DNA from: Campylobacterales bacterium | Lineage (GTDB): Bacteria; Campylobacterota; Campylobacteria; Campylobacterales; QNZT01 | Assembly (NCBI GenBank): GCA_016744895.1 | Contig: JADGDK010000007.1 | Location: 6,227 to 49,045, forward strand | Direction of reading: 5' to 3' | Length of the DNA stretch: 42,819 nucleotides | Part shown: one piece after another, positions 33,905 through 40,819 of the stretch | Layout: every line of letters starts with the position of its first letter | How positions within the stretch are numbered: the first letter of the stretch is position 1 | The notes under the pieces: generated by a model | Told to the model about the DNA's origin: nothing | Databases searched by the model: none | What the model saw: the letters and a program-made list of their open reading frames with translations, nothing else | Made by a program: the position numbers and the translations under genes

Positions 33905-34774
33905 TTATATTAAATTCTGATGTATTTTCAGATCTTTATCAATCAATAAAACGCCTAATCCATCAGGAATAAATAGATCTTTTTCAAGCATGAAAACAGT
34001 ACTATAAACTCCACTAGTCAAAACTTTGTCTGATATAATTGTTGAGGATATAATCTCTTTTGCGTTATATTTTTGACCGATTATATGAGAAAATTGTTTA
34101 CCTTCTATCTCCTTATTTCTCTCATAGTTTGCTGATGTGGTAAGAGCTTGATTGTGTAAAGGGATGATTGCTATATTTTCATTGGGATTTATTGGATTTT
34201 TTATACCTATAGAAAATGGTTCACCATTTGGTTTTAATCCATATCCAAATATATCTCCACCATAGTTTATAAGTGCTGTTTTTATACCATACTTAATTGC
34301 AATTTTTGTAGCTTCATCTACGGCATACTCTTTGATAACTCCACCAAGATCCAGAAGAGTTCTAAGATCTTTAAAATGTAACTTTTTATCTTTTAGATGC
34401 CAAGAATTCAATCCAGTAAAAGGTTCTTTCTTCTCAAGGCACTTTTGAACTTTGTTTAGAGTATTTTGCTTATAGCACTCTTTTAGTGTTCCAGTAGTTA
34501 TATCAAAGATTTCATTTGTTTTTTCACTTAGGTTTCTTATCTCTTTTAAAACTTCAAAAGTTTGACTATCGATAGTAACTTTATTCCTTCTCCTACCATT
34601 TATAACTCTATTTAGATATGATTTTTTGTCATAAAAGTTATATTTTTTTTCAAGTAGCAGTGTATTTTTTTTAATTTCATTAAAGCAAAGATTTGCTATC
34701 TCTTTATTCTCCGTATAAAGTTGTACTTTACACGAAGTTGTCATAGATTCAAATACAAAATCAAAAAGTTCCAT
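33905..34774 (-). CDS. apbE: ApbE-type FAD:protein FMN transferase
   Basis: A 289-residue ApbE homologue, which transfers FMN from FAD to a Ser/Thr of Dxx(S/T)GA(S/T) targets. Motifs: FESMTTS (family MGT region, 8-14), TLLDLGGVIKEYAVDEA (family DLGGIAKGYAVD, 140-155), NYGGDIFGYG (170-179), LTTSANYER (211-219), FSHIIG (228-233) and SGVYSTVFML (254-263). Two points differ from the norm: KE replaces KG at 148-149, and the usual ADALST-type metal loop reads TSGVYST. There is no signal peptide; an in-frame stop lies 8 codons upstream of the ATG, so none is hidden. The ATG is 2 bases after the stop of the propeller lipoprotein gene. It is the last gene of the operon. Confidence 0.9.
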   Translation of the reverse strand: MELFDFVFESMTTSCKVQLYTENKEIANLCFNEIKKNTLLLEKKYNFYDKKSYLNRVINGRRRNKVTIDSQTFEVLKEIRNLSEKTNEIFDITTGTLKECYKQNTLNKVQKCLEKKEPFTGLNSWHLKDKKLHFKDLRTLLDLGGVIKEYAVDEATKIAIKYGIKTALINYGGDIFGYGLKPNGEPFSIGIKNPINPNENIAIIPLHNQALTTSANYERNKEIEGKQFSHIIGQKYNAKEIISSTIISDKVLTSGVYSTVFMLEKDLFIPDGLGVLLIDKDLKIHQNLI

Positions 34775-34776
34775 AA

Positions 34777-35988
34777 TTAATTCTCTAGACTTATATCATA
34801 ATATACTATACTTGTCCCAGTAGTAATCATTAGTTTAGATTCACTTAAAAATACAGCTCCATTTGCTCGTTCAGATAATTTTATAACTTTTGGAGTATCT
34901 GCTCCATCTATGGAGAAAAGATTTACCTGATTACCTGTTGCTGAGATCGCAAAGGTTTTTTTATCTGGTGATACACTTATTGATTTTGCACTTCCATTTA
35001 TAATAAGTGTTTTTTCAAGTACAAGAGTGTTCACATCTGTTATATCATATATCCTTGCTTTGTTACTTCCTACAAAAATAGCAATTATTTTATTTTGATC
35101 AGGAATTTCTACAATAGATTTAGGTATGCCTGTTGTTTCTATTTCTGCTAATTGGGTTTTTGATTCAATATCAAATATTCTTATATATTTTTTCAAACCA
35201 ATTGTACCACAAAAAATATACTCATCATCGTAACTAAAGTTTAGAGATCTTACTTTTGAACTTTGTGTTCCAACATCTATCTCTATTGGATTATTTAAAT
35301 CATCTACATTAAAGATTTTAATCTTCTTATCTTCTCCTCCACCAATAAGCTTTTGTCCATCATGACTAAGAGCTATATCTCTAATATCAGGATAATTAAA
35401 GTAGTTTGAGTCGGAATTGTCTCGTCTAGAGAATCTAGCTTCAGGTATTCCATTGTTAATATTGTCACTATAAATTCCAACACCCAAATCATCACTATCA
35501 TCACTATATTTTTCAAGTAATGAAAAAACTGATGTACCACTTTCATTTATCAAAACTTTCTCTAAAATCTGTTCAGATGCTCCAGTAGTTGTATCTATAG
35601 TTATAGTTTCACCTGATGAGTATCGGCTTCCTGTAACATCCAAATAGAGTTTATCATCACTTATTGTTTGTGTACTTGGATCTATGATCATCAATCGATT
35701 GTCCCATTTGTTATATACAATGGCATTTTGTGAAGATAGCGCCAACCCTTGCGTTATTTCATCAGAATCTTGTTTTTCCCAAGTAATATTATCATCATTT
35801 TTTATAACGCTTATATCAATTTGTGTAGCTTGTGTTTTATCTTCACTATCGTTAACTACATTTTGATTATTTGTATCACTAGGCATACAGTTATTACACT
35901 CTTTTGCTTTGTACTTATCTTCACTATTACAAGCAGTTAACATCAATACGGTAATGACTGAACATACTATTTTTCTATTAATATTCAT
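34777..35988 (-). CDS. Beta-propeller lipoprotein with ApbE target motif
   Basis: A 403-residue lipoprotein with lipobox MLTAC (Cys20) and a CNNC pair near residue 31. From ~70 it is a WD40/YVTN-like propeller, with repeated blades of the type DIRDIALSHDGQKLIGGGEDKKIKIFN, KVRSLNFSYDDEYIFCGT and AKSISVSPDKKTFAISATGNQVNLFS. Residues 132-138 read DTTTGAS, an exact Dxx(S/T)GA(S/T) flavinylation motif with Ser138 as the predicted FMN acceptor; apbE follows immediately. It is inferred to be an extracytosolic flavoprotein electron carrier. It overlaps the DUF3570-type gene by 11 bases. Confidence 0.82.
   Translation of the reverse strand: MNINRKIVCSVITVLMLTACNSEDKYKAKECNNCMPSDTNNQNVVNDSEDKTQATQIDISVIKNDDNITWEKQDSDEITQGLALSSQNAIVYNKWDNRLMIIDPSTQTISDDKLYLDVTGSRYSSGETITIDTTTGASEQILEKVLINESGTSVFSLLEKYSDDSDDLGVGIYSDNINNGIPEARFSRRDNSDSNYFNYPDIRDIALSHDGQKLIGGGEDKKIKIFNVDDLNNPIEIDVGTQSSKVRSLNFSYDDEYIFCGTIGLKKYIRIFDIESKTQLAEIETTGIPKSIVEIPDQNKIIAIFVGSNKARIYDITDVNTLVLEKTLIINGSAKSISVSPDKKTFAISATGNQVNLFSIDGADTPKVIKLSERANGAVFLSESKLMITTGTSIVYYDISLEN
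35575..35595 (-). other. Predicted covalent-FMN site (DTTTGAS) in the propeller lipoprotein
   Basis: These codons encode D132-S138. The motif is the published ApbE consensus, known from NqrB/NqrC and RnfG proteins; the last residue is the attachment point in those proteins. Confidence 0.7.
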
Positions 35989-37186
35989 AACTTACTCCTG
36001 TTGATATCCAATGGCTTTTTAGGTCATAAGATGTCTCTTGCGTTGCAAGGTTTAAATTAAAATCCCATTTACCTTTGAGATCAGATTCTACACCAAAACC
36101 AAAAGTCCAACTATCAAACTCTCCTAACCTATCATCACTCGTAGCATAGCCATCTTCAGAGAACATAAAATCACCTTGACGATCTTTCCAAAAACTAGCT
36201 TCACTCTGTGTATAATAACGAATCATGGGAGCCAACCTTACATTATTTAATACATTGTAAAAACTTTTTAATTCAGCTGTATGAGACTGAATATCCCAAT
36301 CATCTTTATAGTAACGATAGTTTCCATGGACTATTAACCCTTTTTTTAACTCACTGATTCCATAAAGAGCAATTCCAGATTGATTTTTTTCATCAGGTCT
36401 AACTTCACGAGCTCGATAATATCTATATATTGGACTTTGTGCTGCATCAGCTTCATTGACACGACGAATTACTGTCTGATAAGGATTAGTCAAAGCTTTG
36501 GACTGTTGTGATCTAAAAAATGTAATTTGAGCAAGTGTTTGGGGAGTAAATATCTGAGTAAATGTAATTTCTGTATTCCATATATCCATATCTTTCCACT
36601 CTTCATCAAAGTAAAAGTATGATTCATTTCCTTGTACTGAAACACCTGCTGAAATTGATTGATTTTTATTTTCATCTAAATAGTGTAGATAGCTTAAAGA
36701 AGTTTCTGTACTTTTAAAGTCGTCTTCTTCAGAATAACTAACTCCAAAACCCCATTCATTTCTTTTAGGAGTTCTATATGTTAAAGAAGTGTTAATAGCC
36801 TTTCTTTCATCAACCATTTCTATATTTCTATAAACAAAATCACTTAAATCTATCTGTCCATCACCTATTAAATTTCCTGGTCTTCTTTCTGGATCATCAC
36901 ATATATAAGATCCTGACTCATCAGTACAAGGGGAAGGACTAGAAATAGAATCAAATATAGGAGTACCTCCAGTAATCTCATCATATGTAAATGATGCACT
37001 AAGAGAAAAATCTGTACCCAACTCTTTTTTTATATCAAGTATCGTATAATCCACTTTAATACGATCATCACTTTCTGCATAATGTTCTTGCTGAAATTTT
37101 ACAACATCTCCACTTCCCGCATTTGAAATAGATACAACGCCTGTTACAGCCGCTGATATGATTATATTTTTAGATTTTAATTGCAT
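35978..37186 (-). CDS. DUF3570-type outer-membrane beta-barrel
   Basis: A 402-residue protein with a signal peptide (~1-23), then FQQEHYAESDDRIKVDYTILDIKKELGTDFSLSASFTYDEITGGTP, which matches the start of DUF3570 proteins. Many amphipathic strands follow (WGFGVSYSEEDDF, GLIVHGNYRYYKDDWDI, VRLAPMIRYYTQSEASFW), with a C-terminal strand ISTGVSYEY ending in Tyr. ATG 37186 is chosen over TTG 37192 because GGAGG lies 6 bases upstream. Residues 69-75, DEITGGT, nearly match the ApbE target motif. An internal DGQIDLSDF recalls a calcium-binding loop. The gene overlaps the DUF4266-type gene by 10 bases. It is inferred to be the outer-membrane partner of the flavin system. Confidence 0.82.
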   Translation of the reverse strand: MQLKSKNIIISAAVTGVVSISNAGSGDVVKFQQEHYAESDDRIKVDYTILDIKKELGTDFSLSASFTYDEITGGTPIFDSISSPSPCTDESGSYICDDPERRPGNLIGDGQIDLSDFVYRNIEMVDERKAINTSLTYRTPKRNEWGFGVSYSEEDDFKSTETSLSYLHYLDENKNQSISAGVSVQGNESYFYFDEEWKDMDIWNTEITFTQIFTPQTLAQITFFRSQQSKALTNPYQTVIRRVNEADAAQSPIYRYYRAREVRPDEKNQSGIALYGISELKKGLIVHGNYRYYKDDWDIQSHTAELKSFYNVLNNVRLAPMIRYYTQSEASFWKDRQGDFMFSEDGYATSDDRLGEFDSWTFGFGVESDLKGKWDFNLNLATQETSYDLKSHWISTGVSYEY

Positions 37187-37392
37187 CCACAACCTCCACC
37201 ACCAATTCCACCACCACCAACAGAAGCTTCTTTAGATGTAAAAACATGTTCATTTACTTTTTTGATGATTGGGTCACCACCAATTTGCATTCTTTCATGT
37301 GCCAAGGTCCCTTTTTGCCAAGATTTTACAGGTTTTATACACCCTAAAAATAATATGGACAAAAGAACTAGTGAAGTTAATTTATATGGCAT
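37177..37392 (-). CDS. Small DUF4266-type lipoprotein with Gly-rich CGC tail
   Basis: A 71-residue lipoprotein: signal peptide with lipobox LFLGC (Cys18), then KSWQKGTLAHERMQIGGDPIIKKVNEHVFTSKEAS, the core of the DUF4266 family, and a C-terminal GGGGIGGGGCGCN. Mature length is ~54 residues. The two C-terminal cysteines (C68, C70) in a flexible glycine tail suggest metal or thiol chemistry. It sits between the TlpA-like and DUF3570-type genes, the usual company of this family. Its 3' end also supplies the ribosome site of the next gene. Confidence 0.85.
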   Translation of the reverse strand: MPYKLTSLVLLSILFLGCIKPVKSWQKGTLAHERMQIGGDPIIKKVNEHVFTSKEASVGGGGIGGGGCGCN

Positions 37393-37395
37393 ATC

Positions 37396-37845
37396 TCACA
37401 GTCCTTCTATCTTTTTTGCTAATTTTTTATCTATGTTATCTACTGCTCCCAGAATAGCATCAACAACTTTTCCATCTTTGATAATGTAACATGCGGGCAT
37501 TCCTATAGGGTCAAAAGCTGCAATTACTTCTTGTGTTGAATCATTATGAACTCTAAAATCAAGAGCTAATTTCTTTTGAAAAGATAGACCATCTTTTATA
37601 TTCTTATCAGTATCAATTCCTAAAACTTCTATTTTTTTAGAATCACTATTTTTATGTAGAGAATTTACAAGTGGTAACTCTTTTTCACATGATATACACC
37701 AAGATGCAAAAAAGTCAATAACTGTAATTTTTGAGTTATCTAATTTTAAGATTTTTGAGATTTCAGGTTCTATTTTATCACCAATTTTATAAGCTTGTAA
37801 ACTTAATGCTAAAATAGAGGTAATTATTATAGCTTTTTTGAACAT
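37396..37845 (-). CDS. TlpA/ResA-like periplasmic thioredoxin
   Basis: A 149-residue exported thioredoxin-fold protein. The signal peptide (~1-18) is followed by KITVIDFFASWCISCEKELP with redox pair C50/C53 (CISC), the KIEVLGIDTDKNI strand, the cis-proline loop IGMPACYIIKDGKVV (P117) and a short C-terminal helix. The family reduces or oxidises disulfides outside the cytoplasm. The most likely client is the Cys-rich tail of the lipoprotein encoded 3 bases downstream; heme-apoprotein reduction is less likely because no CxxCH protein is encoded nearby. Confidence 0.9.
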   Translation of the reverse strand: MFKKAIIITSILALSLQAYKIGDKIEPEISKILKLDNSKITVIDFFASWCISCEKELPLVNSLHKNSDSKKIEVLGIDTDKNIKDGLSFQKKLALDFRVHNDSTQEVIAAFDPIGMPACYIIKDGKVVDAILGAVDNIDKKLAKKIEGL

Positions 37846-37922: not shown

Positions 37923-40706
37923 CTATGGAATTGTAACTACAGCCATCTGTCTTTTTTTATCACTATTTGTATAATTAAAGAATACTCTTTTGCCATCGCC
38001 TGAAACTGCCATTCTATCAGCTCCTGATGGTTCATTTGAAAATGATTCTTCACTTATAGTCCCATCATCTGCAATATTAAGTATATATATTCCGTTTAAT
38101 GATTTATCTGATCTTTGTACTGGAATCATTAGTTTATTTTCTCCATCAACTACTCTTCCTTCAGCACCATACATACGACCTCCTGTACCTGTACTAAATA
38201 TTTTTTTGTCTTGAAGGTCTTCATTGAAGCTAAATATATTTCCATCATATGTATTTACAATTACTCTTTGATGTGCATACCAAACTCTCGCTATTTCTTC
38301 AACTTCTGCAGAAGCTACTACACCATTTGCATCAACTGCATAAACTTTTTCACCATCTCTTTGGAAAGCCCTGTCTCCTTCATTATTAATTGCTGGAGGA
38401 CCATATGTTTTATACTCTTTATTGTCTCCCATATCAATTGTGCTATTTATAGTGATATTTCCACTTGCATCCACATCATAAATTTCAGCTAAAAATGTGT
38501 CATCATCTTCTTTAACAAAAACTATAGCCTTAGAGTTGTCATTATTCCACTCTACATTGCTTGGTGTACCTGTTGTAATATCTAAAGAGTTTGTTGCATC
38601 AGCAGCTAAAGTTCCATCTTGCCCTACTGCTACACTAAATATTCTACCAAATTCCTCTTTTTTTGTTATTGCAAATGCATTAACACCATTTACTCCTACA
38701 CCTACAACTTCTTCATCATCAGCAAATCTCTTTGGTTCAGTTGCCACTGATATTTCACCTGCTTCATTTACAGAGTACGAGGCTAATCCATATTTTGTCT
38801 CTTCACCAAATGTAGCTTGGATTGGTGCTACAAGTATACTTCCATCACCATTTGCCGCCATATATTGAGCTATTCCTGTTTCTACAGATTTTGGAGTTGG
38901 TAATATTACTGGAACTTTACGAATATTAATATCAAACTCTTTATTTCCTATTTTTGTAGTACTTCTAAATGAAGCTGTAAGTGCAGCTTGTAGTTTTCCA
39001 CTCTCATCCTGTGCTTCATTTGTTGGTCTTGTGACTTCACCATTGGCTGGATTTAAAACTCCTGTTGGAAGAGTACTTGTCCAAGAAATACCGACATTTT
39101 CATATGCACTATTTAGTGATACATCTTTTATAATGGCATTAAGATAACCACCACCATTGATTGATGATCTATTTAGTCCTTTTTTAGCAAGTTCGATTTT
39201 AGTGTCTAAATTTATATTTTGGGTAGTTGTTGTAATGTTTATCATACCAACACTATTTCTACCGTTTATAATCGCTAATTTATCATTATCTAAAAACTCT
39301 GCATCTCTTACACCTTCAGCTGGGAAAAGACCCTGTACACTAAAGTTTGGCACCGTAAGGTTTAAAATCATAACATCACTAGATTCGTGTCCCACAAGAG
39401 CCATTTTGCTAAAGTCAGGAGATATTACCGCAGTATCTGAAGTAAATTTTGTATTAGAAGCATTGATACTACCATCAGCCAAATTTACAATAGCTATATC
39501 TGTAATACCTTTATTATCATGGCCATGATTAAACGCTACAAGCTTACTTGCATCACTATTTATAATTATCTCAGCTGGTTTAAATCCAAGGATAATTTTT
39601 TCATTTCCAGTAAGAGTTTCTGCGGATAATTTAGTAATATTTTTATCATTTGCAACAAATACGGTATCACCTTCAACGGCTATAGCATCAAAACCATCAG
39701 ATTCTATAGCAGCTATTTCATTAGTTAAATCTCCATCATATACAAAGAGGTTTTTTTCACTATCTAACACAACAACTTTACTATCATCACTAGCTACTGC
39801 ATATTTAGAAACTATTTTATTTAATCTTTTAGAGTTTGTTAAATCTATGGAAACTCTCTCACCAACTGTAAATCCAGTTGTATCTGTAGTTGTTGCTATA
39901 GATCCATCATCTTCTATTTTAACTTTATATAGTCCTATTGTAGCCGTATCTGCAGTTTTTGAGCTAGCTCCTTTAGGAGGTATATTTGCATACACATAAG
40001 AAGAGTCAGAATTTAGAACAACATTTCTTAAATAATTTTCACTAGCTCCAGATGTAGAATCTTTTCCATGTCCTGAATCTGTTATAACTGAAACTGGAGA
40101 AAATACTTTGTCTCCTGATGTTATATCGATCACAGTAAGAGCATTGTGATAGTGACTAGCAGCCACAATTTTTCCATTTTTTGCTGTAATTTTACTAATG
40201 GAAGCATCTTTAGAGTCAACCCATTTAGGGTCAATTTGTGCCTTTATTTCTTCATCCACGTTTTTAGATAAAGATTCTGTAAATTCAAGTTTTGCCAAAG
40301 ATGGAATATCTGCTTCTTGTATCTCATTATCGGTAACAGTTATATCTTTGATTCCTTGTGGGTTTGAAGATACCATTGTCATTACTTTATTTATAACTGC
40401 TGCAGTCACAGCGCTTGGATTTGCATCAGGGTGTGCTGCTTTTGCATTCTTAACCGCTGTTTCTACATCTTTTAGGTTTTGAGAAGTAGGATTTTTATTA
40501 CCAAACTTCTCTTTTACATAAGCTTCAACTGCTGGTATTGTTTTTGAATCTATAACTTGATTATATATTAATTCATTATTTAATATGGTATCTCCTAAAA
40601 TTTTACTTTGTAAATTCGTAGTCATACCCCCAGAGCCATTAGAACTTCCACAACCTACTAAAATAGTTGCTAGAGAGATAGATATAAGACTGTTCTTGTA
40701 TTTCAT
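37923..40706 (-). CDS. Large double beta-propeller lipoprotein with ApbE target motif
   Basis: A 927-residue lipoprotein: lipobox LVGC (Cys19), a helical region (~30-150), a first propeller (~165-495), an atrophied bacterial Ig domain (~502-598, ISWTSTLPTGVLNPANGEVTRP), and a second propeller (~605-927). Residues 216-222 read DSTSGAS, an exact ApbE target motif with predicted FMN on Ser222, followed by ENYLRNVVLNSD, which parallels the context in the smaller propeller (EQILEKVLINES). Blades are YVTN-like. The ATG at 40706 with AAAGGA is chosen over 40754, which lacks a signal peptide start. It is the first gene of the flavin operon. Confidence 0.82.
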   Translation of the reverse strand: MKYKNSLISISLATILVGCGSSNGSGGMTTNLQSKILGDTILNNELIYNQVIDSKTIPAVEAYVKEKFGNKNPTSQNLKDVETAVKNAKAAHPDANPSAVTAAVINKVMTMVSSNPQGIKDITVTDNEIQEADIPSLAKLEFTESLSKNVDEEIKAQIDPKWVDSKDASISKITAKNGKIVAASHYHNALTVIDITSGDKVFSPVSVITDSGHGKDSTSGASENYLRNVVLNSDSSYVYANIPPKGASSKTADTATIGLYKVKIEDDGSIATTTDTTGFTVGERVSIDLTNSKRLNKIVSKYAVASDDSKVVVLDSEKNLFVYDGDLTNEIAAIESDGFDAIAVEGDTVFVANDKNITKLSAETLTGNEKIILGFKPAEIIINSDASKLVAFNHGHDNKGITDIAIVNLADGSINASNTKFTSDTAVISPDFSKMALVGHESSDVMILNLTVPNFSVQGLFPAEGVRDAEFLDNDKLAIINGRNSVGMINITTTTQNINLDTKIELAKKGLNRSSINGGGYLNAIIKDVSLNSAYENVGISWTSTLPTGVLNPANGEVTRPTNEAQDESGKLQAALTASFRSTTKIGNKEFDINIRKVPVILPTPKSVETGIAQYMAANGDGSILVAPIQATFGEETKYGLASYSVNEAGEISVATEPKRFADDEEVVGVGVNGVNAFAITKKEEFGRIFSVAVGQDGTLAADATNSLDITTGTPSNVEWNNDNSKAIVFVKEDDDTFLAEIYDVDASGNITINSTIDMGDNKEYKTYGPPAINNEGDRAFQRDGEKVYAVDANGVVASAEVEEIARVWYAHQRVIVNTYDGNIFSFNEDLQDKKIFSTGTGGRMYGAEGRVVDGENKLMIPVQRSDKSLNGIYILNIADDGTISEESFSNEPSGADRMAVSGDGKRVFFNYTNSDKKRQMAVVTIP
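40041..40061 (-). other. Predicted covalent-FMN site (DSTSGAS) in the large lipoprotein
   Basis: These codons encode D216-S222. The Dxx(S/T)GA(S/T) match is exact and lies at the same place relative to the first propeller blades as the motif of the smaller lipoprotein. Confidence 0.7.
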
Positions 40707-40752
40707 ATTTTTTTTCCTTTTGTGAAATATTTTTAAACTTAATGAGACTAAC

Positions 40753-40819
40753 AATATAAAACTTAAATTATACAGATAATGAAATCCGTTATCACTAGCA
40801 TATAATTTAAGTTTATATT
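40753..40819. repeat. ~19-bp inverted repeat with outward-facing -10 boxes
   Basis: The left arm 40753-40772 and right arm 40801-40819 are complementary over 19 bases with one extra A in the left arm; an inner GATAA/TTATC pair sits in the 28-base spacer. Each arm contains TATAAT reading outward: 40767-40772 on the minus strand, toward the large lipoprotein gene (~60 bases from its ATG), and 40801-40806 on the plus strand. It may be a divergent promoter/operator pair or the end of a small mobile repeat. Confidence 0.65.

Follow-up and report, generated by a model that had tools for sequence, protein, structure and literature searches.

Known flavinylation systems

Several protein families serve as substrates for the FMN transferase ApbE, and those on record include FMN-bind, NqrB/RnfD, DUF2271, DUF3570, Flavodoxin_4, and FMN_red, with no propeller among them (PMC8238504, PMC11334425). 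The minimal substrate sequence that has been verified is D-x-x-[ST]-G-A-[ST] (PMC12052999). Flavinylation of a DUF3570 protein has been demonstrated at two [ST]GA[ST] sites (Meheust et al., eLife 2021, PMC8238504), and the combination of ApbE, DUF3570, a thioredoxin-like protein, and DUF4266 is described as a DsbD-type flavinylation cluster (PMC8238504). The word ‘propeller’ does not occur in PMC8238504, a later survey of substrate folds contains no propeller (PMC11334425), and our search for literature joining ApbE with propellers or WD40 repeats gave no match.

Here we analyse a locus of a Campylobacterales bacterium in which beta-propeller lipoproteins carry the ApbE motif. The window, the whole stretch of DNA that was analysed, has 42,819 nucleotides; its genome is referred to below as G000.

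An operon with propeller lipoproteins

Six genes lie on the same strand, and in their order of reading they encode the following proteins:

37923..40754, minus strand: P0003, a double-propeller lipoprotein with an aBig_2 domain between the propeller halves (Pfam; open reading frame of 943 aa)
37396..37845, minus strand: a TlpA/ResA-like thioredoxin with WCISC and a signal peptide (Pfam, AhpC-TSA/thioredoxin)
37177..37392, minus strand: a small DUF4266 lipoprotein with C-terminal GGGGCGCN (CXC) (PF14086, 70 bits)
35978..37192, minus strand: P0004, a DUF3570 protein resembling an outer-membrane barrel, without a strict ApbE motif (PF12094, 177 bits)
34777..35988, minus strand: P0001, a WD40-type beta-propeller lipoprotein of 403 aa (open reading frame translation, Pfam, Foldseek)
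33905..34774, minus strand: P0002, an ApbE FMN transferase of 289 aa (PF02424, E 8.7e-47)

The open reading frame of P0003 begins at TTG, and its likely ATG start is at 40706. ApbE, DUF3570, DUF4266, and a thioredoxin-like protein thus occur together in the window (PF02424, PF12094, PF14086, and AhpC-TSA/thioredoxin). One member of this set, DUF3570, has been demonstrated as an ApbE substrate, so the operon belongs to a flavinylation system of known type, here with propeller members that had gone unrecognised. An earlier note on this DNA, made from the sequence alone, had recognised the neighbouring apbE and missed the DUF3570, DUF4266, and TlpA-like genes, together with the second propeller and its DSTSGAS. 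It also proposed that a propeller would be an uncommon or new class of FMN target; this stands as far as the substrates on record are concerned, while the cluster around the propeller is of a kind already described.

A DsbD gene lies within the operon in one genome alone (G446), and in each of the other four genomes with such an operon the single DsbD_TM gene lies far off or on another contig. Elsewhere in the window's genome there is a standard DUF3570/DUF4266 pair (L051, G000:C335), a further apbE, which belongs to the same clade and adjoins a response regulator (L111, G000:C365), and an ApbE, apparently exported, with an FMN-bind gene nearby (L112, G000:C110).

The WD40 lipoprotein and its motif

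The lipoprotein P0001 carries two sequence features:

35575..35595, minus strand: ApbE flavinylation motif DTTTGAS (D132-S138), with Ser138 as the predicted FMN acceptor (open reading frame translation, homologue alignment)
35887..35898, minus strand: CxxC (C31-C34), just past the lipidated Cys20 (homologue alignment)

The lipobox of P0001 reads LTAC20, and the lipobox cysteine is aligned in all five homologues, as judged by eye, and the protein is predicted to lie outside the cytoplasm. Pfam matches to WD40 repeats cover residues ~200-390 (PF00400, 35 bits against a cut-off of 27), and with Foldseek the C-terminal blades of a partial model match WD40 structures over ~205 residues. The N-terminal half of the model is of low confidence. 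AlphaFold predictions of the full length and of residues 64-403, made from two-sequence alignments, modelled the motif half poorly, with pLDDT of ~25 around the motif, and for this reason we make no structural claim about it. By its sequence repeats, the motif lies between blades 1 and 2, in the loop preceding the first strand of the next blade, and is directly followed by EQILEKVLINES.

The exact DTTTGAS that the earlier note had reported in a WD40-like lipoprotein is confirmed at residues 132-138 of the 403, in a protein that Pfam and Foldseek both place with WD40, and it fits the verified minimal substrate sequence (PMC12052999). The close spacing to apbE was also read correctly, with the lipoprotein stop codon ending at 34777 and the ATG of apbE at 34774, 2 bases past the gene.

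Beyond the window, searches across samples of relatives, family, order, and phylum, and across a contig collection, yielded the WD40 lipoprotein from no more than four genomes: G002, G307 (Sulfurovum sp. MAG bin23, locus L008), G397, and G446. One homologue came from the contig collection, none was found in the plasmid search, and the phylum-wide sample contained none beyond the window itself. The homologues are thus a small sample of five genomes including the window's, several of them fragmented. In all four others the gene is flanked by DUF3570 and apbE, to the extent that the contigs cover them. Adjacent apbE genes are found in the window and at L034, L008/L061, and L060. In G002, the fragment upstream of the lipoprotein encodes the end of a DUF3570 protein, and in G446 the propeller is split over two contigs, with C94 ending inside it and C128 carrying its C-terminal part, ApbE, and then DsbD.

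At 30-50% identity, the five homologues read DTTTGASEQ, DSVSGASEQ, DSVSGASEQ, DTQSGPSEK, and DAITGASEQ. The Asp, the Gly, the acceptor Ser, and the following Glu are invariant, while the free positions differ (DTTT, DSVS, DSVS, DTQS, DAIT). The full motif, with [ST]GAS, is kept in four of the five, G397 having SGPS with Pro in place of Ala. Of the five positions that the earlier note had named for a check of invariance, D132, G136, and S138 are thus the same throughout and T135 is Ser or Thr, whereas A137 varies in one homologue. Homologues next to apbE in which the Asp or the last Ser/Thr is missing had been named as the observation that would count against a flavin site, and both residues are retained in every homologue. 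No part of the alignment is better conserved than the surroundings of the motif, 8-column windows over or just after it taking ranks 1-5 of 396. The CxxC after the lipid anchor is found in the homologues of G000, G002, and G307 and is absent from those of G397 and G446.

We consider it likely that the WD40 lipoprotein serves the ApbE encoded next to it as a dedicated substrate and that the propellers share the role of flavin carrier or, in the window's lineage, take it over.

Flavin sites in the DUF3570 barrel

The DUF3570 protein of the window retains recognizable remnants of two sites:

36962..36982, minus strand: former site 1, DEITGGT, with Ala changed to Gly and the acceptor Thr kept (barrel site comparison)
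36932..36952, minus strand: former site 2, DSISSPS, with GA changed to SP (barrel site comparison)

The canonical first site is D.[VIL][ST]GA[ST]. In the main DUF3570 group of the order, an [ST]GA[ST] first site is present in 29 of the 29 barrels outside the propeller clade, most of which carry one or two additional sites. At least one strict site occurs in 31 of the 34 barrels outside the propeller clade, and none in the barrels of the window and G307. The comparison within the propeller clade covers four barrels, that of G002 ending at a contig edge and being unscored, and in all four the first site has become [ST]GGT. Strict sites persist in G397 (one) and G446 (two), so that [ST]GA[ST] is absent from the window's barrel and present in others of its clade; the window and G307 have DEITGGT and either DSISSPS or DSISAPS.

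The loss of barrel sites in the window and G307 suggests, at the level of sequence, that the flavin has moved to the propeller. Since barrel and propeller of G446 alike carry strict sites, such a handover would not be general. The same genome led us to drop a strict reciprocity, in which barrel sites would be lost exactly where the propeller carries a site.

An alternative is that the true flavin site is still the barrel's DEITGGT, with Thr77 as acceptor, and that the propellers are assembly or docking partners which are at most incidentally flavinylated. The barrel's first site retains the Asp, the Thr, the Gly, and the acceptor Thr, its [ST]GGT form is common to all four propeller-clade barrels, and the G397 and G446 barrels keep strict SGAS sites. 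Furthermore, changing the motif Ala to Val in another substrate left ~50% of flavinylation (PMC12052999), so [ST]GGT may be tolerated and may still work. Against this, the barrels of the window and G307 have lost sites 2 and 3, while the propeller motif is perfect and forms the most conserved stretch of its protein. We regard this alternative as rather unlikely.

A second, deeply separate DUF3570 clade (L092, L094-L096, L098) shows DAISAAS and the like at its first site and, for instance, DTVAGAS at its second; three of its five members are without a strict motif, and apbE adjoins them where the contig allows. Near a DUF3570/DsbD cluster in G371 (L094:8849-10087, minus strand) is a lipoprotein with DFLSGAT. 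It is probably a multi-haem cytochrome, and its DFLSGAT is possibly an additional flavin site or a chance occurrence.

The motif against chance and the second propeller

Turns of the form D..[ST]G are common in the c-d turns of WD40 repeats. Propellers are rich in such turns, and the motif might be a chance or structural look-alike in which GAS, the invariant Glu, and strand A are features of the fold and not an ApbE site; the SGPS of G397 would fit a fold that needs only D, G, S, and E. The frequencies argue against this reading, D..[ST]GA[ST] appearing in 0.25% of shuffled P0001 trials, in 1.2% of shuffled P0003 trials, and in just one of 341 unrelated open reading frames around DUF3570 loci. 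By these counts the P0001 motif exceeds chance expectation. By sequence it also precedes the first strand of the next blade and so lies outside the c-d turn.

Further evidence comes from the second propeller lipoprotein of the operon. Among six-frame open reading frames of at least 60 aa, the strict motif occurs only twice in the 42.8 kb window, in the two propellers of this one apbE operon:

40041..40061, minus strand: second exact motif, DSTSGAS, residues 232-238 of P0003 (window motif scan, alignment)

The DSTSGAS blade of P0003 aligns with the motif blade of P0001, and a P0003 profile matches the G002 WD40 lipoprotein at the motif blade (E 7.9e-6). In G446, too, a protein of this double-propeller architecture is encoded upstream of tlpA. 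Outside such operons, two P0003 relatives (1105 aa in G397 and 1095 aa in G446) share the YHNALT(V/I)ID blade, but the motif is absent from them, which also speaks against a requirement of the fold. A look-alike thus appears quite improbable.

The ApbE enzyme and its lineage

In P0002, Ser214 and His230 match Ser241 and His257 of Vibrio cholerae ApbE at equal spacing, and the position of Asp285 is taken by Gly255. All 23 ApbEs of the clade that accompanies DUF3570 have Gly at this position, and on this sequence evidence the clade is an unusual ApbE subtype. It is probably active despite the missing Asp, given that all 23 members share the Gly and most of them stand beside barrels with perfect motifs. 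In each of the five propeller operons the open frame of ApbE extends at most 7 codons beyond the gene, too little for a signal peptide, and modification would therefore precede export. Cytosolic ApbEs are known (PMC12052999).

It is very unlikely that P0002 is not the FMN transferase for these proteins and that their flavinylation, if any, is due to another ApbE, such as that of G000:C110, which keeps the Asp, apparently carries a signal peptide, and has an FMN-bind gene close by: although Gly stands at the Asp285 position of P0002 and a signal peptide is lacking in all five propeller operons, the triad Ser and His are retained, and the Gly is shared by a whole clade whose members mostly adjoin DUF3570 proteins with perfect SGAS sites.

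The ApbEs of the propeller operons are monophyletic (support 96/97), as are their DUF3570 proteins (100/100), across five genomes in three families. G000 and G307 belong to different families and pair as sisters for DUF3570 (100/99) and, with weak support, for ApbE (86/54). With ApbE and DUF3570 clades of its own, and with standard DUF3570 genes carried elsewhere in both G000 and G002, the propeller-type operon represents a separate subtype. Its distribution in these trees indicates that it was probably transferred between families as a unit.

A possible role in electron transfer

The sequences show the motif, the operon, the conservation, and the lineage; we infer FMN attachment to the WD40 lipoprotein and, with less certainty, the route of the electrons and their final acceptor. 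In the proposed mechanism, ApbE would use FAD to attach FMN to Ser138, in the DTTTGAS loop ahead of blade 2, and P0001 would thereby become a flavoprotein anchored in the envelope; P0003 would probably be modified likewise at Ser238. In standard systems the DUF3570 barrel is the flavin carrier; here the propellers would share that role and, in the lineage of the window, would probably have taken it over. Electrons could pass from DsbD to the TlpA-like thioredoxin, to the CXC and CxxC thiols of DUF4266 and the lipoprotein, and from these to the FMN sites, then onward through or to the outer membrane. Direct transfer from thiol to flavin would be possible where the CxxC lies near the lipid anchor, as in G000, G002, and G307.

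P0001 probably represents a kind of flavin-carrying redox protein that had not been recognised before. More tentatively, and with some doubt, the flavin may have been handed over from the DUF3570 barrel to a propeller with CxxC and FMN, giving a new class of thiol-to-flavin relay; the double propeller encoded in the same operon would then be a second flavinylated protein. If true, a flavinylated propeller lipoprotein would add one more fold to the ApbE substrates, and the flavin site would be movable between partners of one electron-transfer system. P0001, being small and probably expressible, would also offer a way into the DUF3570/DUF4266 pathway, which is poorly understood.

Comparison with known systems

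The closest described system is the DsbD-type cluster (PMC8238504), which has the same set of TlpA-like, DUF4266, DUF3570, and ApbE proteins; the operon of G446 also ends in DsbD. Propeller-type operons differ from it by adding one or two motif-bearing propeller lipoproteins, and their barrel has partly or wholly lost its own sites. With the substrates DUF2271, FMN-bind, NqrB/RnfD, Flavodoxin_4, and FMN_red (PMC11334425), P0001 shares D-x-x-[ST]-G-A-[ST], a neighbouring apbE, and a predicted extracytoplasmic location. In contrast to them it is a lipoprotein of the WD40 propeller type, for which no flavin-binding pocket is known, and its flavinylation is predicted; as the folds on record include no propeller, it would form a new substrate class if modified. 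Compared with WD40 repeat proteins (PF00400 and related families), the C-terminal blades of P0001 are WD40 repeats like theirs, while the protein as a whole is distinguished as a lipoprotein with a flavinylation-motif loop and, in three of the homologues, an N-terminal CxxC.
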